From Ferruginibacter sp. (GTDB lineage Bacteria; Bacteroidota; Bacteroidia; Chitinophagales; Chitinophagaceae), in NCBI GenBank assembly GCA_025362765.1, contig JANYFI010000064.1, forward strand, positions 1 through 13,607: 13,607 nucleotides of DNA, written 5' to 3'. Every line of letters starts with the position of its first letter. Position 1 is the stretch's first letter. The position numbers and the translations under genes were made by a program. The notes under the pieces were generated by a model that saw only the letters and a program-made list of their open reading frames with translations, ran no database searches and had not been told where the DNA came from. Shown piece after piece: positions 6,449 to 13,137 of the stretch.

Positions 6449-6625
6449 TTAAGTGATGCATAAGGCCTGTAAAATGTAAGTTTTACAGGCCTTTTTTATG
6501 CCCTTCCATGTAATTAATGCCGGCAAAAAAATAATGGAGAGCACAAGCATGCCCGCTGCTGTCAACGTTGCTTTTCTTTCATGGATCAGCACAATATCTA
6601 CAGGACAATTAATATCCATAGGCAT
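6449..6625 (-). CDS. Doubtful 58-residue ORF, possible gene remnant
   Basis: Read leftward from ATG 6625 (alternative ATG 6619) to TAA at 6451-6449. The first 37 or so residues look protein-like: a polar start containing MDINCPVDIV and then a hydrophobic, possibly membrane-spanning stretch (AAGMLVLSIIFLPALI). The start reminds me of small membrane proteins of the DUF4395 kind, from memory only. The last 20 residues are encoded by the tRNA terminator hairpin itself, so the C-terminus cannot be original coding sequence. It is either a truncated remnant or a chance ORF. No promoter match is seen upstream. Confidence 0.22.
   Translation of the reverse strand: MPMDINCPVDIVLIHERKATLTAAGMLVLSIIFLPALITWKGIKKACKTYILQALCIT
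6464..6497 (+). terminator. Strong intrinsic terminator after tRNA-Ser
   Basis: GGCCTGTAAAA (6464-6474) pairs perfectly over 11 bp with TTTTACAGGCC (6481-6491) around the loop TGTAAG, followed by six T residues (6492-6497). Confidence 0.93.
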
Positions 6626-6751
6626 AACGATGAGTTTATTATGGGTAATTTAATAATTGATAATAAAGCAACAGGAAATAAATTTGTATGTTTTTTTGTT
6701 TGCTTATACTGCGTATCTATTTTTTAAAGATTGATTTTTATTATTAGTCTA
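6498..6751. other. Intergenic DNA between the tRNA terminator and the susCD leader promoter
   Basis: AT-rich. Apart from the doubtful minus-strand ORF and a lone TAnnTTTG match (TAAATTTG, 6679-6686, plus strand), I see no gene, repeat or RNA here. Confidence 0.4.
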
Positions 6752-6755
6752 TAAA

Positions 6756-6787
6756 TTTGGTAGGCTAATAAAATCATTCTATTTTTG
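6756..6787 (+). promoter_or_regulatory. Probable promoter of the leader peptide-susCD-tlpA operon
   Basis: TTTG (6756-6759) and TATTTTTG (6780-6787) are separated by 20 nt, a textbook Bacteroidota sigma-ABfr arrangement (TTTG-N19-21-TAnnTTTG). Transcription should start near 6792-6796. That gives about 170 nt before the small Cys-rich ORF and about 405 nt before susC. The -33 box overlaps another -7 match, TAAATTTG (6752-6759), so an alternative upstream start is possible. Confidence 0.6.
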
Positions 6788-6966
6788 CAGCAGATTTAAC
6801 AGAGGAGTGCTCAATAATTCGGATGTTTTAAAATTGTTCCAATCTTATAAGGGCCTGTTTTTTTAAGAAGAAGAATAAATTACAGGTGACGCAGCCTGCT
6901 CCTTTTTTCCGGTGTAATCAGATAATGATCTATTGTAATCAAAAGTTTTAAACTAAATATTTTATA

Positions 6967-7071
6967 ATGAAACAGTGCGCCCCATTTAATTTTTCTCCTT
7001 TCTTTTTGCTCACTTTAAAAGTTGTCGCCAATAATTGTTGTGCCAACTGCAACAGTTGTTGTTGCAGTTAA
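6967..7071 (+). CDS. Cysteine-rich 34-residue leader peptide upstream of the SusC operon
   Basis: A small ORF that starts MKQCAPFNFSPFFLLTLK and ends CCANCNSCCCS. Seven of 34 residues are cysteine (C4, C24, C25, C28, C31, C32, C33; four UGU and three UGC codons). The middle (FNFSPFFLLTLKVV) is short and hydrophobic. In-frame TAA at 6949-6951 blocks any upstream start. It lies 129 nt upstream of susC on the same strand, inside the likely operon leader. The last cysteine codons form both arms of a perfect hairpin, and the TAA stop sits at its base. I infer a regulatory leader peptide: either ribosomes stall at the Cys codons when charged tRNA-Cys is low, or the cysteine cluster senses metal or redox state. 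It could instead be a small functional metal-binding protein. I do not recognise it as a named family, and chance cannot be excluded without homologues. Confidence 0.7.
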   Translation: MKQCAPFNFSPFFLLTLKVVANNCCANCNSCCCS

Positions 7072-7165
7072 TCTTCCTCAAAAATTTGCTATAATAAATC
7101 GTTTGAAACAGGCCGTGTAAACAACTGGCATGTTGCCAATAGCCATTGCTATGCTCATTGGCAAT
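7044..7165 (+). promoter_or_regulatory. Competing RNA structures in the operon leader (candidate attenuator)
   Basis: Several pairings exclude each other. Hairpin B is AACTGCAACA (7045-7054) with TGTTGCAGTT (7060-7069), 10 bp perfect, over the last Cys codons. Hairpin A is CAACTG (7044-7049) with CAGTTG (7053-7058). Long-range pairing E is CAGTTGTT (7053-7060) with AACAACTG (7120-7127). Hairpin C is TGGCA (7126-7130) with TGCCA (7134-7138). Hairpin D is TTGCCAAT (7133-7140) with ATTGGCAA (7157-7164), ending 36 nt before the susC ATG. E excludes A and B, and C excludes D. No T-run follows C or D, so a classical intrinsic terminator is not evident; control of susC translation or Rho-dependent termination is more likely if the switch is real. 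Confidence 0.5.
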
Positions 7166-7185
7166 CAATCATATCTTAACCAAAA

Positions 7186-7193
7186 TAATTTTG
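7186..7193 (+). promoter_or_regulatory. Weak -7-like element directly before susC
   Basis: TAATTTTG matches TAnnTTTG and ends 7 nt before the susC ATG. The nearest TTG (7158-7160) is 25 nt away, too far for a good -33 box. If active, it would give a leaderless susC transcript that bypasses the Cys-rich leader; more likely it is chance in AT-rich DNA. Confidence 0.2.
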
Positions 7194-7200
7194 ACTAATT

Positions 7201-10200
7201 ATGTACAAGACTTCGATCCTTATCAAAAAAATAATTCAAAAAGGGGCGGCATGCCTGCTGCTATTTCTTTTGTCTCAATCAGCAATAGCGCAACGGCTAA
7301 GCGTCAATGGTTCAGTAACGTCTAAAAATACCGAGCAGCTTTTGCCAGGTGTTACCATTGCTGTGGAAGGCACTACTGCAAAGGCTGTAACGGATGCCGC
7401 AGGCAACTTTTCAATAAATGCAACAGATAAAAGTGTTTTAATCTTTTCATTTATTGGGTACAAATCTCAGCAGATAATAATCGGTAAGAACACCGTTTCG
7501 TTACAAGTTTTACTGGAGCAGCATGAAAACCTGCTGAATGAAGTAGTAGTAACTGCGCTGGGCATCACTAAAGAAAAAAAGTCTTTAGGTTATGCCGTGC
7601 AGGAACTAAAGTCAAAAGATATTTCCGAGGCTAAGGAAACCAATCTTGTCAATGCATTATTGGGCAAGATAGCAGGCGTAAATGTTACCAATAGCCAGGG
7701 CGATATGGGGTCTTCAAGGATCATCATCCGTGGCGAAACTTCTATCGCCGGCAATAACCAACCCTTGTTTGTTATAGATGGCGTGCCGGTAGATAATTCG
7801 CAATTTCAGGGTTCCGGCGCATCCAGGGATTTTGCTAATTCCATCGCCGACATCAACTCAGAAGACATCGAATCTATCAGTGTGCTGAAAGGCCCTAATG
7901 CCGCGGCGCTTTATGGAGCCCGTGCCGCAGCCGGTGTTATCCTTATAAAAACAAAGACGGGTAAAAAACAAAAAGGGCTTGGCATCACCCTCAATTCAAA
8001 CACCAGTTTTTCTAACCTGCTCACGTTGCCCAATTATCAAAATGCTTTTGGGCAAGGCTCCAACGGCAACTTTAGTTATGTAGATGGAAAGGGCGGTGGA
8101 GTGAATGATGGCGTTGATGAAAGCTGGGGACCTGCATTGGATGGAAGGCTTCTCCCTCAATTTAATTCTAATGGTGTGGCAGTGCCGTTTGTTGCGCATC
8201 CTAACAACGTTCGTGATTTTTTTAATACCGGTTATACTTATAACAATGGCGTGGCTATTGCAGGATCGGGCGATAAATATGATGTCCGCTTCTCTTACAA
8301 TAACCAAAAACAAACGGGCGTAATACCCAACACCAGCCAGGGAAAGAATTCTTTTTTATTGAACACTACGTATAAAATTTCTCCGGAACTGACCCTGCAC
8401 GCAAGCGCCAATTATATACAGGACAATGCCGCTAATTTACCCGGGGCATTCGGTAAAAGGGCTACCAGCACCATGTTGCAGTTTACCTGGTTCGGAAGGC
8501 AGGTAGATATCAGCCAGCTAAAAAATTACCGCAACGCAGATGGCAGCACCTTTAACTGGAACAACAGTTATTACAGCAACCCTTATTTTCTGGCTTACGA
8601 AAATACAGCAGGCCAGCGAAGGGACAGGTTGATAGGAAACGTTGAATTGAACTATAAGATAGCTAAAGGGCTATCCGCAAACTTTCGCACCGGCAACGAT
8701 TATTATACAGACCGCCGTAAATTAAAGATTGCTTATGGCACCAATGGAACGCCATTCGGATCTTATGAAGAAGATGCTTATACCATCAACGAAAACAATA
8801 CAGAAGCAAGGCTCGATTTTAATAAAAAACTGAACAGTGATTTCTCGCTTGATGTTTTCGCAGGTGGCAACATCCGCACCAACAGCTATACACAGAACGA
8901 CCAGGTAGCGCCAAAGTTAGCGGTGAGCGGGGTTTACACGCTAAGCAACTCCCGCGACCCGTTGATATCTTCCAATTATTTCAGCAAGCTTAAGACCTAT
9001 AGTTTGTTTTCATCGGCACAGGTGGGCTATAAAAACTATGCCTACATAAACCTTACCGCACGCAACGATTGGTCATCTTCATTGCCTGTTGTTAACCAGT
9101 CTTATTTTTACCCATCCGTAAACGGCAGCTTTATATTAACAGAAGCATTCGACATAAAAGGCACAGTGCTTAGCTATGCAAAATTAAGAGGCGGCTGGTC
9201 TAAGGTGGGCAAGGCGGCAGACCCTTACCAGTTGGTGAACACGTTTAATTTTACTGCGCCCTTTGGCACCAGCCCGCAACAGAATATAGCCAGCATTGAC
9301 CTTAATCCCAACCTTAAACCAGAGAGCACTTCTTCTACTGAAGTGGGTGCAGAGTTTGGCTTTTTAAATAACCGCATAAGGCTGGACCTCAGCTTGTACA
9401 ACACCAATAGCATTGACCAGATATTAAGCGTAGATGTAAGCCCATCAACAGGCTATAGCCAAAAACTCATCAACGGCGGAAAGATAAATAACAAGGGCAT
9501 AGAAGTGCAGTTGGGGTTGACGCCTGTAAAATCTACTCAATTTACATGGGATGTAAACTTCAATTTTTCCAGCAACCGCAGCAGGGTATTAGAGCTGGAT
9601 AAAGAAGGCAGGCTACAGAGTTACGTGCTTGGGTCAGACCGTACAGTACAGGTATTGGCAGCAGTAGGACAGCCATACGGATCGCTTTTCGGCAATGCTT
9701 ATTTAAGGGATGCATCCGGACAAATAATCGTGACTGCCGGCGGTACGCCTACCATTGACCCTACAAAACATTTTCTTGGAAAGTTTACGCCAGACTGGCT
9801 GGGCAGTATCAGCAACAGCTTTACTTATAAAGATTTCAACGTAAGCTTTTTGGTAGATGCAAGAGTGGGCGGATCGATCTACTCCAACACCAACCGTACC
9901 GGAACTTATACCGGCGTACTGGCAACAACATTGCCGGGCCGCAATGCCGCCAATGGAGGGCTTGCTTATTATTATGCCGGCAACCAGGCTTCAACCGGTG
10001 CCATTGCAATTGCGGCAGGTACTGCTGCAGGGCCAGGCGGCGAAACAGTTTACCAGGATGGCAATGTGTTTAAAGGCGTTACCGCAGATGGCAAAGCAAA
10101 CACAACGATACTGCCTGCACAGAATTACTATAAAGGCTTTACTAATGTAGATGAACAGTTTGTGTACGATGCTACCTATGTAAAACTTCGCGAAGTAAAG

Positions 10201-10413
10201 TTTGGCTATTCGCTTCCTTTGAAACTGATAAAGGGCATTGGCCTGCAAGGCGCCACCATTGCTGTGGTTGGCCGCAACCTTTGGATCATTCATAAAAAAG
10301 TACCTAACATAGATCCTGAAACAGCCTTTGCCAACAGCAACGCACAGGGCCTTGAAGACCTTACACTGCCAACAGTCCGTAACATCGGCATCAACATCAA
10401 CCTTAAATTTTAA
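7201..10413 (+). CDS. SusC/RagA-type TonB-dependent outer membrane transporter
   Basis: A 1070-residue outer-membrane beta-barrel that imports a nutrient with its SusD lid, powered by TonB-ExbBD. Signal peptide: residues 1-30 (basic IKKIIQK, hydrophobic LLLFLL, cleavage after SAIA). Next is a carboxypeptidase-D regulatory-like beta-sandwich (about 33-105), the TonB box region EVVVTALG (114-121), and the plug domain (about 125-250). The plug has the SusC hallmarks LFVIDGVPVDN (189-199) and ISVLKGPNAAALYGARAAAG (226-245). The barrel fills the rest and ends in INLKF with the terminal Phe used in outer-membrane assembly. There is no extended signalling domain, so anti-sigma control is not indicated. 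The mature protein has no cysteine. The substrate is not readable; a SusD-like partner and TlpA follow. The upstream Cys-rich leader probably regulates it. Confidence 0.96.
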   Translation: MYKTSILIKKIIQKGAACLLLFLLSQSAIAQRLSVNGSVTSKNTEQLLPGVTIAVEGTTAKAVTDAAGNFSINATDKSVLIFSFIGYKSQQIIIGKNTVSLQVLLEQHENLLNEVVVTALGITKEKKSLGYAVQELKSKDISEAKETNLVNALLGKIAGVNVTNSQGDMGSSRIIIRGETSIAGNNQPLFVIDGVPVDNSQFQGSGASRDFANSIADINSEDIESISVLKGPNAAALYGARAAAGVILIKTKTGKKQKGLGITLNSNTSFSNLLTLPNYQNAFGQGSNGNFSYVDGKGGGVNDGVDESWGPALDGRLLPQFNSNGVAVPFVAHPNNVRDFFNTGYTYNNGVAIAGSGDKYDVRFSYNNQKQTGVIPNTSQGKNSFLLNTTYKISPELTLHASANYIQDNAANLPGAFGKRATSTMLQFTWFGRQVDISQLKNYRNADGSTFNWNNSYYSNPYFLAYENTAGQRRDRLIGNVELNYKIAKGLSANFRTGNDYYTDRRKLKIAYGTNGTPFGSYEEDAYTINENNTEARLDFNKKLNSDFSLDVFAGGNIRTNSYTQNDQVAPKLAVSGVYTLSNSRDPLISSNYFSKLKTYSLFSSAQVGYKNYAYINLTARNDWSSSLPVVNQSYFYPSVNGSFILTEAFDIKGTVLSYAKLRGGWSKVGKAADPYQLVNTFNFTAPFGTSPQQNIASIDLNPNLKPESTSSTEVGAEFGFLNNRIRLDLSLYNTNSIDQILSVDVSPSTGYSQKLINGGKINNKGIEVQLGLTPVKSTQFTWDVNFNFSSNRSRVLELDKEGRLQSYVLGSDRTVQVLAAVGQPYGSLFGNAYLRDASGQIIVTAGGTPTIDPTKHFLGKFTPDWLGSISNSFTYKDFNVSFLVDARVGGSIYSNTNRTGTYTGVLATTLPGRNAANGGLAYYYAGNQASTGAIAIAAGTAAGPGGETVYQDGNVFKGVTADGKANTTILPAQNYYKGFTNVDEQFVYDATYVKLREVKFGYSLPLKLIKGIGLQGATIAVVGRNLWIIHKKVPNIDPETAFANSNAQGLEDLTLPTVRNIGININLKF

Positions 10414-10418
10414 CTATC

Positions 10419-11858
10419 ATGAAATTGAAATCGCTATACATATCCTTCTCTGCATTTTTATTGCTAACATTTTCTGCCTGCAAAAAAGACCTGGAGAAAG
10501 TGAACCAGAACCCCAACGCAGCGCAAAACGCACAGCCGGATTTTTTATTGACGGCCGCTATCAAAACAACCGCCGATACTTATTGGGGCACAACAAACAA
10601 CATGAACAGCAGCCTGCTATTTATACAATACTGGGCAAAGATTCAATACACCGATCCTGACCGCTACATATTTTCTAACAGCGATTTTCAGGAGCTGTGG
10701 ACAGTCGGGTTTTCTAAAAGTATCGTGAACCTTAACCAGGTAATCCGCATTGCGGATGCACAGCAAAACCCTAATTATAAAGGCGTGGCGTTGGTATTGC
10801 GTTCGTGGGTATTTTTATTATTAACGGATGCTTACGGCGATATTCCTTACAAGCAATCTGCCAATATAGATACTTACTTAACGCCTGCCTATGACCATCA
10901 GAAAGATGTGTACGAAGGCTTACTGGCTGATTTGAAAACTGCGCAGGCATCGCTTGATCCCGCAGGCAAAGCCATTTTAGGCGATGTGGTGTACAACAAC
11001 AATATTGCCCTTTGGAAAAAGTTCGCCAACTCTTTGCGGTTGCGCATAGCATTGCGTATTGCGGATAGGGAGCCTGAAGTATCTAAACAAGTATTGGCAG
11101 ATATCCAGACGGAAGGTGGCTCATTCATTAGCAGCAATACCGAAACGGCGCAACTGGTTTATTTAAGTTCGCCCAACCAAAACCCTATCAGTAATTTGTT
11201 TGATACCCGAGACGATTACCGCATCAGCAAAACAGTTACTGATCAACTGGCAACGCTCAATGACCCACGCTTGCCCATTTTTGCTGCAAAAACACAAGTG
11301 GCTACGCCGCTGACTTATGCAGGTATTCCGAATGGTTTATTGGTAGGCGATGCAAGCAGCCTTGGGTTTACAAAAACCTCTAAGCCGGGTACTTATTTTA
11401 CAGCGCCTAACGCACCGGCGGTAATAGTAAATTATGCGGAAGTATTGTTCAACAGGGCGGAAGCTGCTGCAAGGGGGCTTACAACGGAAGACGCCGAAGC
11501 GCTTTATTTACAAGCCATCAAAGCATCGTTGGGGCAGTATGGAATTGCGGATAATGATATCGCAACTTATACCGCACAACCCGCTGTACAGTATGATGCG
11601 GCTAATTTTAAAAAATCTATCGGCAACCAAAAATGGATAGCGCTTTTTGGCGAAGGCCTTGAAGGATTTGCAGAATGGCGCAGGCTCGATTATCCTGAAT
11701 TGCAGCCAGCCGTAGCAGGCGTATTAAATGGCAAGCTCCCTTTGCGTTTTGTATATCCCGGCACGGAACAATCATTGAACGGGCAGAATTATAAAGCAGC
11801 CGTAGCAGCACAGGGGCCAGACCTGTTGACAACAAAACTTTGGTTCGACGTAAATTAA
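10419..11858 (+). CDS. SusD/RagB-like outer membrane lipoprotein
   Basis: The surface lid that captures ligand for the SusC barrel; the gene starts 5 nt after the susC stop. The lipoprotein signal peptide ends in FSAC with lipidated Cys21, followed by Lys-Lys and the common early VNQNPNA segment (28-34). The 479-residue length and the motifs match the SusD-like type 2 group: DAYGDIPY (137-144), LFDTRDDYRIS and NDPRLPIF (260-288), NYAEVLFNRAEAAARG (338-353) and the late EGFAEWRRLDYP (415-426). The N-terminal half contains the helical TPR-like repeats of the family. Cys21 is its only cysteine. The ligand is unknown, and nothing here indicates glycan enzymes, so a polysaccharide utilisation locus is not supported. 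Confidence 0.94.
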   Translation: MKLKSLYISFSAFLLLTFSACKKDLEKVNQNPNAAQNAQPDFLLTAAIKTTADTYWGTTNNMNSSLLFIQYWAKIQYTDPDRYIFSNSDFQELWTVGFSKSIVNLNQVIRIADAQQNPNYKGVALVLRSWVFLLLTDAYGDIPYKQSANIDTYLTPAYDHQKDVYEGLLADLKTAQASLDPAGKAILGDVVYNNNIALWKKFANSLRLRIALRIADREPEVSKQVLADIQTEGGSFISSNTETAQLVYLSSPNQNPISNLFDTRDDYRISKTVTDQLATLNDPRLPIFAAKTQVATPLTYAGIPNGLLVGDASSLGFTKTSKPGTYFTAPNAPAVIVNYAEVLFNRAEAAARGLTTEDAEALYLQAIKASLGQYGIADNDIATYTAQPAVQYDAANFKKSIGNQKWIALFGEGLEGFAEWRRLDYPELQPAVAGVLNGKLPLRFVYPGTEQSLNGQNYKAAVAAQGPDLLTTKLWFDVN

Positions 11859-11868
11859 AACAGCAATC

Positions 11869-13137
11869 ATGAAAAATAAATCAACGTCTTTAAGCAAATC
11901 GGTAATAGCGATATTGGTATTGATGATATCAGCTATCTCTATACATTGGATGGAGAAGAAACCAGCATTGAAACCAGGCAGATGGAGAGCCGCGATCAAC
12001 CGGCCAGATGGGCAGCAGATTGTATTTAATTTTGAAACGAAAGATAAGGCAGGCAAACCTGTACTGTACATCATCAACGGAAGCGAGCGCCTGTTGGTAG
12101 ATAGTATCGGGTTTAGCGGAGATTCTTTATTTATACAAATGCCCTTCTTTGAATCTGGCTTTAGGGTAAAGCTGAATGGCGAAAATGAACTGGAAGGCAC
12201 CTGGGTAAAAAGCTATGGAGAGGTAATACAAAGGCTGCCATTTAAAGCGCGGTATAACACTATAGAAAGGTTTGCCACCACCGCCATTGCAACCGCTAAT
12301 ATTACCGGAAGATGGTCGGCTCATTTTAAAGGAAAGAATGATAAAGTATCAACGCTTACGGCAGAGTTTACGCAAGATGGGGCGCACCTTACCGGCACCT
12401 TCCTTGATCCTACGGGCGACTATCGTTTTTTAGAAGGCGTAGTAGATGGCGATAGTTTAAAGCTATCTGGTTTTGATGGCGGGCATGCATTTTTGTTTAC
12501 AGCAAAAGTGGATGATGGCAATACGATATCTTCCGGTAAATTTTATTCCGGCGCCAAAGGATTGCAGGATTGGTCGGCAGAAAAAAATGCCAATGCCGCC
12601 ATACCCGATGGAAACGATGCCGCCAACATTAACCTTGCCGCTGGTAAATTAAATTTTAGTTTTCCTTCCATAACGGGTGGCGGCAATGTTTCTATAAAAG
12701 ACAAACAGTACGCTAACAAAGTGGTAGTGATACAAATCCTCGGCTCATGGTGCCCTAACTGTATGGACGAGACCAGTTTTTTAAGCGATTACTATAATGC
12801 CAATAAACAACGCGGCGTTGAAGTAATAGGCCTCACTTATGAACGTACTACAGACCTTGAAAAGTCGCGGAAGGCGGTGCAATCCTTCAGCAAAAGATTT
12901 GATGTAAAGTACCCCATACTGTTGACTGGTGTAGCCGTATCCGATACCTTGCGTGCAGAAAAAACATTGCCGCAATTAAAAAAGATAGCCGCCTTTCCCA
13001 CAACCCTGTTTGTTAATAAAAGAGGAGAGATAGCAAAGGTACACATCGGCTACAATGGCCCTGCCACAGGCAAGCATTATGAAGAATATAAAAAAGAGTT
13101 TGAAGAAACAATAACAAAGTTGCTGGCAGAAAAATAA
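11869..13137 (+). CDS. TlpA-like thioredoxin-fold protein with duplicated N-terminal beta domain
   Basis: A periplasmic, probably membrane-anchored thiol-disulfide protein of 422 residues, starting 10 nt after the SusD gene. Residues 10-26 are a hydrophobic segment without a lipobox or clear cleavage site. Two similar beta-rich modules follow (about 37-115 and 147-228): each begins GRW and has GDSL exactly 47 residues later, suggesting an internal duplication. The C-terminal TlpA/AhpC-TSA domain (about 260-420) has the redox motif W294-C295-P-N-C298 and the cis-proline loop FPTTLFVNKRGE (376-387). The two active-site cysteines are its only ones. TlpA-type proteins usually reduce disulfides, in cytochrome c maturation or in stress defence. 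Co-transcription with SusC/SusD suggests it acts on the imported substrate or protects the transporter. This role is inferred. Confidence 0.9.
   Translation: MKNKSTSLSKSVIAILVLMISAISIHWMEKKPALKPGRWRAAINRPDGQQIVFNFETKDKAGKPVLYIINGSERLLVDSIGFSGDSLFIQMPFFESGFRVKLNGENELEGTWVKSYGEVIQRLPFKARYNTIERFATTAIATANITGRWSAHFKGKNDKVSTLTAEFTQDGAHLTGTFLDPTGDYRFLEGVVDGDSLKLSGFDGGHAFLFTAKVDDGNTISSGKFYSGAKGLQDWSAEKNANAAIPDGNDAANINLAAGKLNFSFPSITGGGNVSIKDKQYANKVVVIQILGSWCPNCMDETSFLSDYYNANKQRGVEVIGLTYERTTDLEKSRKAVQSFSKRFDVKYPILLTGVAVSDTLRAEKTLPQLKKIAAFPTTLFVNKRGEIAKVHIGYNGPATGKHYEEYKKEFEETITKLLAEK

Follow-up and report, generated by a model that had tools for sequence, protein, structure and literature searches.

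A leader peptide with a tail of cysteine codons probably ties a SusC/SusD/TlpA operon of Ferruginibacter sp. to the supply of sulfur amino acids

What is a 34-codon open reading frame (ORF) that ends in a cluster of cysteine codons doing in front of an operon for a TonB-dependent transporter? The locus lies in a stretch of 13,607 nucleotides from Ferruginibacter sp. (hereafter, the window), which comes from a draft assembly of 852 contigs that is 69% complete. We think it quite probable that the ORF encodes a leader peptide that reads the supply of sulfur amino acids via its own codons and that leaders of this kind control sulfur scavenging in Bacteroidota. The ORF and its tail are:

6967-7071, plus strand: leader ORF of 34 codons with a Cys-rich C-terminus (from the ORF listing, its translation, and homologous Cys-tail ORFs)
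7036-7065, plus strand: presumed regulatory Cys codons 24, 25, 28, 31, 32, and 33 (from the codon positions and the Cys/Met tail profile of 53 unique homologous leaders)

In the window's list of ORFs, 6967-7071 begins with ATG and is translated as MKQCAPFNFSPFFLLTLKVVANNCCANCNSCCCS, followed by the stop. Cys is encoded at codons 4, 24, 25, 28, 31, 32, and 33, so that six of the seven are within the final 11 codons, and 129 nt separate the stop codon from the ATG of susC (7201); our recount agrees with the initial annotation on the length, the Cys counts, and the spacer. The window's leader has consecutive Cys codons (CC and CCC), and homologous leaders have up to CCCCCC. The Cys tail is not due to chance: in 5000 dinucleotide shuffles of 6701-7200, no ATG ORF of 10-60 codons reached six or more Cys in its last 11 codons. 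A weaker tail, for which three Cys with a CC pair among the last 12 residues suffice, was seen in 127 of these 5000.

The operon had been read as SusC/SusD/TlpA, and Pfam and NCBIfam confirm these products:

6462-6493, plus strand: terminator-like hairpin and T tract that close the tatD-like gene upstream and set it apart from the operon (terminator scan)
7201-10413, plus strand: SusC/RagA-family TonB-dependent transporter (TIGR04056, 613 bits, cut-off 368)
10419-11858, plus strand: SusD-like lipoprotein (PF12771)
11869-13137, plus strand: TlpA/ResA-like thiol-disulfide oxidoreductase with a CPNC motif (Pfam/NCBIfam; a paralogue in the same genome, 52% identical, lies behind another Cys leader)

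The nearest relatives of this SusC are 83% and 81% identical and are from metagenome-assembled genomes (MAGs) labelled Ferruginibacter. The nearest solved relative is BT_2264 (5fq6_B, E = 2.4e-124), which we take to be a member of a complex that was crystallised with peptides. Given this likeness, and a TlpA/ResA-like protein in the operon, the cargo might be sulfur-containing or disulfide peptides.

Is the leader conserved? When we searched 195 genomes of the family with the leader peptide (P0001), 19 genomes, including its own, had matches at E ≤ 0.1, which is about the number expected by chance, and at none of the other loci was there a SusC gene behind the match. Since this search was at the chance level, we instead collected the leaders of orthologous SusC genes. 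The first set has 26 places in 24 of the 195 family genomes (L022 is the window), and the second has 80 loci from named genomes, which are the best 80 of 133. We defined a Cys-tail ORF as an ATG ORF of 6-60 codons, at most 500 nt upstream, whose last 12 residues hold at least three Cys, two of them adjacent. We found one at 48 of the 80 SusC orthologues in the second set; among other genes on the same contigs, 8 of 318 had one, and so did 21 of 1600 dinucleotide shuffles of the 80 loci. The initial annotation had made conservation upstream of orthologous operons one test of its proposal, and at these 48 loci the tail is kept. One of the eight control matches (L053) precedes a gene whose start resembles cysteine desulfurase, and a few of the Cys-tail matches, such as L121, are unlike the rest. 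In the first set, Cys-tail ORFs were found at 9 of the 16 loci with at least 59% identity (this includes the window, and the genomes partly overlap those of the 80-locus set). Of the ten distant SusC genes, one lacks a called start, and one of the other nine has a Cys-tail ORF.

The other 32 of the 80 orthologues fail this strict criterion. By our own judgement, and without a shuffle control, 15 of these 32 keep a weaker form. A looser, unshuffled rule finds a Met/Cys end (RMCxxC, for instance) at thirteen of the misses; it also picks the apparently unrelated L092. In the closest relative (L048), the orthologous leader ends with SCCSSTK and has only two Cys in its tail, and the leader at L111, another miss, has CC. 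We saw no Cys/Met end in 17 of the 32 misses; among these is L090, whose start codon is probably misplaced. As far as the sequences can tell, it is the Cys tail and little else that recurs in the leaders of orthologous SusC genes.

The make-up of the tail suggests that its codons matter. Across 53 unique leaders, the last 16 residues are 25.9% Cys and 10.0% Met, versus 1.1% and 1.5% in the front part; our filter for leaders selects for Cys and not for Met. Counted over 56 leaders, the last 16 codons contain 92 in-frame ATG triplets versus 5 and 13 in the other two frames, and 235 in-frame TGY triplets versus 88 and 24. Both Cys codons are common (124 TGT and 100 TGC). The Cys run is at the extreme end of the leader, with Cys at position -3 in 81% of leaders, and the spacing of Cys inside the cluster differs between homologues. 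The initial annotation had also proposed comparing synonymous and nonsynonymous change. In 14 hand-picked pairs of leaders, 26 of 112 codons in the tail were nonsynonymous, versus 146 of 390 in the front part, so the tail does change less, although the difference is modest. These comparisons support selection for Cys and Met codons in the leader ORF, and the leader probably senses methionine besides cysteine.

Which other genes have such leaders? We ran a Cys-Cys-Cys-Cys-stop pattern in 12 genomes that were chosen because they carry the SusC orthologue, including the window's own genome (G000), and found 86 sites, versus 11 for the reversed pattern. We sorted all 86 sites: 59 lack an ATG within 60 codons, 3 lie within other ORFs, 2 are under 12 codons, and 22 are intergenic ATG-ORFs. 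Nineteen of these 22 precede TonB-receptor, metY, cysH, or redoxin genes (6 the window's SusC family, 6 other TonB-receptor genes, 5 metY, 1 cysH, and 1 redoxin), and 3 have no such gene. The downstream families were checked on eight representatives (PF01053/TIGR01326, PF01507, Plug, CarbopepD_reg_2, and AhpC-TSA). The gene at L128 runs off the contig and matched CarbopepD_reg only, and L162 and the remaining metY genes were assigned from their start sequences. The leader at L164 heads susC-susD-sulfatase-sulfatase. The leader at L134 heads a TonB receptor that adjoins PAPS-reductase-family and sulfite reductase genes, and by eye L162 has the same layout.

At the E-values we used, 188 of 247 genomes of the phylum have metY and 86 have cysH-like genes. 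Among the best 30 loci of each, Cys-tail ORFs precede metY at 10 of 30 (5 of 600 shuffles) and cysH at 5 of 30 (10 of 600 shuffles); three of the cysH cases are convincing, and all three are in the window's family. A SAM riboswitch lies 5' of the Cys leader at five metY loci of the CCCC-stop set, at 9 of the 10 surveyed metY loci with a leader (the exception is L224), and at one cysH locus, L237. No Cys leader was found at five other metY loci that have a SAM riboswitch close by (L212, L213, L218, L219, and L220). Where both are present, riboswitch and leader are probably two sulfur sensors in series on one transcript. The SAM-I riboswitch (S-box, RF00162) is absent from the window: an Rfam search of the window and of the leader gave no match, RF00162 included.

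We also note some variants of this arrangement. The order SAM-I riboswitch, Cys/Met leader, metY is seen at L135, L157, L160, L197, L202, L206-L211, L214, L216, and L217. In the cysH operon of G004 (L267/L237), the SAM riboswitch is accompanied by a leader with two Cys runs (CCCC and CCCKC). Genomes further away in the phylum (L230, L232, and L233) have Met-rich or Met/Cys-rich ORFs before metY (for instance, ...MMCWSMMMPMHHKGTGV), and these are possible methionine leaders.

In G034, from the same genus as the window, a Cys leader opens a sulfate-assimilation operon (cysH, cysD-like, cysN-like, a hexapeptide transferase, cysK, and further genes). The same genome has a CCCC leader before a TonB receptor (L311) and a CCCCC leader 537 nt before a PhyH-type gene (L312), which is followed by SDR-like and TlpA-like genes and adjoined by encapsulin-like genes. 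The window's own genome has three Cys leaders besides the window's:

L128, before the start of a TonB-receptor-like gene: leader with a CCCCCC-stop end
L306 4053-4139, minus strand: Cys leader before an arylsulfatase, with a gap of 190 nt
L306 7585-7692: Cys leader before a CarbopepD_reg gene and then the TlpA paralogue that is 52% identical to the window's TlpA

Our Cys-tail scan of L306-L318 also gave ORFs that overlap or are antisense to genes (three in L306); as leaders, we took ORFs in gaps before genes. The L306 contig also encodes a family 2A encapsulin shell (535 bits, cut-off 380), the cysteine desulfurase cargo of the encapsulin (895 bits, cut-off 800), and a metX-like protein (327.7 versus a cut-off of 331 bits for one model, and 345.6 versus 500 for another).

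The genes behind homologous leaders thus include supply genes for the sulfur amino acids (metY, the cysH operon, and sulfatases), and by association the window's operon may serve this supply as well. The inference of the initial annotation, that a leader peptide senses cysteine or a sulfur source, is well supported at the sequence level by conservation at orthologues together with like tails before sulfur genes.

As a side observation, the L306 contig has a DUF4395 gene after the TlpA paralogue, and over 31 residues a 58-codon ORF in the window (6449-6625, minus strand) matches the beginning of the DUF4395 protein (52%). This ORF has no Pfam match and looks like a decayed copy.

Upstream of the leader are two further elements:

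6756-6787, plus strand: Bacteroidota-type promoter, with TTTG at 6756-6759, 20 nt, and TATTTTTG (TAnnTTTG) at 6780-6787 (motif coordinates and the Bacteroidota consensus)
6748-6764, plus strand: inverted repeat TCTATAAATTTGGTAGG, a putative operator of the form YCTAY-N7-RTAGR that overlaps the -33 element (the only match in the 13.6-kb window)

TTTG / TAnnTTTG is the promoter type of Bacteroidota, and the predicted promoter here, which had been described as well formed, fits it. A sigma-70 scan of the window did not report a promoter at 6756-6787. Transcription is predicted to start near 6795, which would give a leader RNA of about 405 nt. TAnnTTTG is found within 250 nt of the leader's ATG for 32 of 56 leaders (a figure without a shuffle control).

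The inverted repeat is present in 22 of the 57 promoter regions of homologous leaders, window included (the mean for shuffles is 0.3 and the largest is 2). We drafted the regular expression after inspecting about nine promoters, so the count of 22 of 57 is not blind. With other half-site spacings, from 3 to 12, there was no match in the 57 promoter regions. A stricter pattern, TCTAYNNNNNNNRTAGAC, from which the window's own site deviates, had 17 strand hits in the window's own genome versus 6 for the control. There was no clear excess over the control in four other genomes (8/7 in G034, 10/9 in G087, 18/22 in G162, and 9/16 in G200), so on its own it is a poor genome-wide marker. At L317, the repeat sits between the leader and the gene, not 5' of the leader.

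The stricter pattern has nine sites in the window's own genome, and we examined the surroundings of all nine. Two are between the sulfatase and encapsulin genes, one is before the TlpA leader, one is before an Rrf2 gene, one is before apparently unrelated genes, and four are before TonB-receptor genes. Two of the three TonB-receptor genes concerned have no Cys leader (our scan found none at L308 and L309). The encapsulin and cysteine desulfurase genes (L306 4222-7419) are behind two copies of the repeat and lie between the sulfatase and the TlpA unit, each with its Cys leader. The Rrf2-family regulator gene (L307 258-746) has an inverted repeat of the window's type that ends 49 nt upstream. 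Its protein scores under the cut-offs of the equivalog models for CymR and IscR. This protein is a candidate regulator of sulfur genes, and the repeat may be an Rrf2-type binding site.

How might the tail affect susC? The features of the leader RNA that bear on this are:

6883-6898, plus strand: weak terminator-like hairpin, followed by T-rich sequence, that falls within the predicted leader, 5' of the Cys ORF
7045-7069, plus strand: perfect 10-bp hairpin of Cys codons, 7045-7054 with 7060-7069 (RNA folding)
7072-7200, plus strand: untranslated spacer from the leader stop to susC, with 26 C and 17 G (base count)
7130-7198, plus strand: second short ORF, whose stop is 2 nt before the ATG of susC (ORF list)

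In the window, the hairpin of Cys codons and an 8-bp alternative (7053-7060 with 7120-7127) are mutually exclusive, and the spacer has an 8-bp stem of its own (7133-7140 with 7157-7164). The terminator scan found no terminator-like site at 7072-7200. We aligned 19 Mucilaginibacter-type and 8 Pedobacter-type leaders, which we picked from the 57, and found no conserved or clearly covarying RNA structure in either alignment; two-sided changes were seen at one of three predicted pairs in the first and at none of five in the second. The mean unpaired fraction at the susC start, across 57 leaders, was 0.597 for the free RNA, 0.599 with the Cys codons blocked, and 0.614 with the stop blocked. Blocking the Cys codons leaves the accessibility of the susC start unchanged (a mean change of 0.002 across the 57 leaders). 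Because there is neither conserved pairing nor a change in start accessibility, we rejected a simple RNA switch as the general mechanism. We also set aside ORF 7130-7198 as a device for translational coupling, as its ATG is absent in several relatives (alignment by eye). The spacers have a skew of C over G of 0.199 (n = 52), versus 0.060 for 279 control regions, which include promoters, and C-rich spacers would fit access by Rho. TTTTT is present in 27 of 52 spacers. In Mucilaginibacter loci (such as L065, L071, and L089), the sequence around AATCAATTCTTTACAG, midway along the spacer, is conserved.

We propose the following mechanism, in which we infer that the leader is translated, that the ribosome pauses, that pausing raises expression, and that it is coupled to susC. 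Transcription of the leader would start at a promoter that an Rrf2-type operator overlaps, and a ribosome would translate the 34-codon ORF. When charged tRNA-Cys is plentiful (and, for many homologues, tRNA-Met too), the ribosome would reach the stop codon and leave, and the 129-nt untranslated spacer would then hold susC-susD-tlpA low. When charged tRNA is scarce, the ribosome would pause on the Cys codons by the stop, and expression would rise. The pause could be linked to susC by Rho-dependent termination, a block of translation, or RNA decay. The window's operon would be one of several sulfur-scavenging units (sulfate assimilation, metY, sulfatases, and TonB transporters) with a common leader and often the operator.

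Could the cysteines instead bind a metal or sense redox state as part of the nascent peptide, and so relieve or cause ribosome arrest? The initial annotation allowed for this, and the best precedent is from Bordetella, where bfrG presumably encodes a TonB-dependent transporter. In the parts of the CruR report that we draw on (PMC9426467), CruR is a copper-responsive upstream ORF before bfrG, with a spacer of 162 bp; its CXXC motif senses copper, RAPP causes the stall, and it acts via Rho's access to the RNA after the ORF. The window likewise has a Cys-rich ORF before a TonB-dependent transporter and a long spacer, and pause-dependent control by Rho is possibly a shared end step. CruR, however, is longer, and copper is sensed by the nascent chain through an internal CXXC with a separate RAPP stall, whereas the Cys codons of the window are the last ones before the stop. 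The window's leader has no RAPP motif, and it has C-A-N-C at codons 25-28 and Cys at the C-terminus. Since the stop codon directly follows the cluster, the ribosome would still enclose these residues at the time of the decision, which argues against metal or redox sensing. Also, the spacing within the cluster is variable, Met is co-enriched, and the identified partners are transporter and sulfur genes. So this alternative, for which we found no support, seems quite unlikely.

The peptide could also be a free-standing Cys-rich micropeptide, such as a thiol buffer, a metal store, or a modified natural product. The ORF is translatable and its Cys end is conserved, as this would require, but the front part is poorly conserved and the leaders precede differing target genes in the loci that we examined. 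Nor does P0001 match any family in Pfam or NCBIfam, and ten homologous leader peptides had no NCBIfam match except one below the threshold (E = 0.11). We give this explanation very little credence.

Alternatively, the TGY run might act as an RNA or DNA element and not as codons. The Cys codons of the window do form a 10-bp hairpin, and inspection by eye suggests that in some Mucilaginibacter loci the TGY run could pair with the spacer. Against this, TGY and ATG are strongly in frame with the ATG start and end at the stop, TGT and TGC are both common, and neither alignment had a conserved structure. It is very improbable that the codons are incidental.

A further possibility is that the leader is real and reports the supply of Cys, but that the cargo is not a sulfur source; for instance, the operon might maintain the redox state of the envelope via TlpA. 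A TlpA-like protein is in the operon, and redoxin genes recur behind Cys leaders. The leader, and often the promoter repeat, is nevertheless common to sulfate assimilation, metY, and sulfatases, and the repeat is also found at the encapsulin and cysteine desulfurase genes, so we doubt this strongly. Finally, that the ORF is a chance one is scarcely conceivable: short ORFs are common and weaker tails turn up in shuffles, but the actual tail never did, and most of the 80 orthologues keep one.

We return to our preferred explanation, a leader read through its Cys codons. Classical leader peptides (trp, his, and thr) have a run of codons for the amino acid that is sensed and lie before the genes for its supply. 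The leaders described here differ in that we found no conserved terminator or antiterminator, the control codons abut the stop, and many unlinked targets have the tail in common. The closest precedent is in mycobacteria, where leaderless short ORFs with polycysteine tracts mediate Cys-dependent attenuation, according to the passages of PMC13236596, PMC9031893, and PMC9094748 that describe this work (Canestrari et al. 2020, doi 10.1111/mmi.14498). Those passages share with our case contiguous Cys codons, a short upstream ORF, and cysteine biosynthetic genes among the targets. The Bacteroidota leaders differ in being from another phylum, in the Met codons of the tail, in targeting SusC/TonB transporters and sulfatases, and in the SAM riboswitch in series at metY. 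Also, the mycobacterial ORFs are leaderless, while the promoter at 6756-6787 puts the predicted RNA start of the window about 170 nt before the ATG, so this feature would not hold here. In Rhodobacterales, uORFC-8-2 lies before cysS and has tandem Cys codons, and the portion of that report that we draw on (PMC8632094) interprets it as ribosome-mediated attenuation, with two Cys codons in a conserved stem, a U run consistent with an intrinsic terminator, and cysS as the only target. The window differs in that the gene is susC, there is no conserved fold, and 7072-7200 has no terminator-like site.

For Bacteroidota, our literature search, whose coverage largely excludes subscription papers, found no description of Cys-codon leaders, and the initial annotation likewise knew of no equivalent for SusCD operons. 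In the parts of the reports that we draw on, leader-peptide attenuation is described at amino-acid operons of Flavobacterium, where Cys leaders are not named (PMC9723704), and leader-like short ORFs are described in 5' UTRs of Bacteroides thetaiotaomicron (PMC7366714). PMC11109978 mentions neither cysteine nor Bacteroid. Polycysteine attenuators in mycobacteria and a Cys-codon attenuator at cysS in Rhodobacterales are already known, and the Bacteroidota case is apparently new.

More broadly, we lean towards a two-layer regulon for sulfur starvation in Sphingobacteriales and Chitinophagales, with the window's operon importing organic sulfur, at odds somewhat better than even. An Rrf2-type operator would gate transcription, and Cys/Met leaders would then gate elongation or translation via charged tRNA-Cys and tRNA-Met. 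The outward-facing part would comprise SusC/SusD, other TonB transporters, sulfatases, and the TlpA-like reductase. The inward-facing part would comprise sulfate assimilation, metY (in series with the SAM riboswitch), and, via the operator, the family 2A encapsulin and its cysteine desulfurase cargo. The organic sulfur might be disulfide-bearing peptides that are reduced by TlpA.

For many SusC/SusD systems, the cargo is unknown. A leader that names the nutrient that is sensed would offer a route, from sequence, to assign some of these systems to sulfur foraging. It would also mean that codon-based sensing of Cys, described in mycobacteria, exists in another phylum, where it seems to span both sulfur amino acids and works in series with the SAM riboswitch at metY. 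For the bacterium, the leader probably acts as a gauge: when cysteine is short, sulfur scavenging would be raised.
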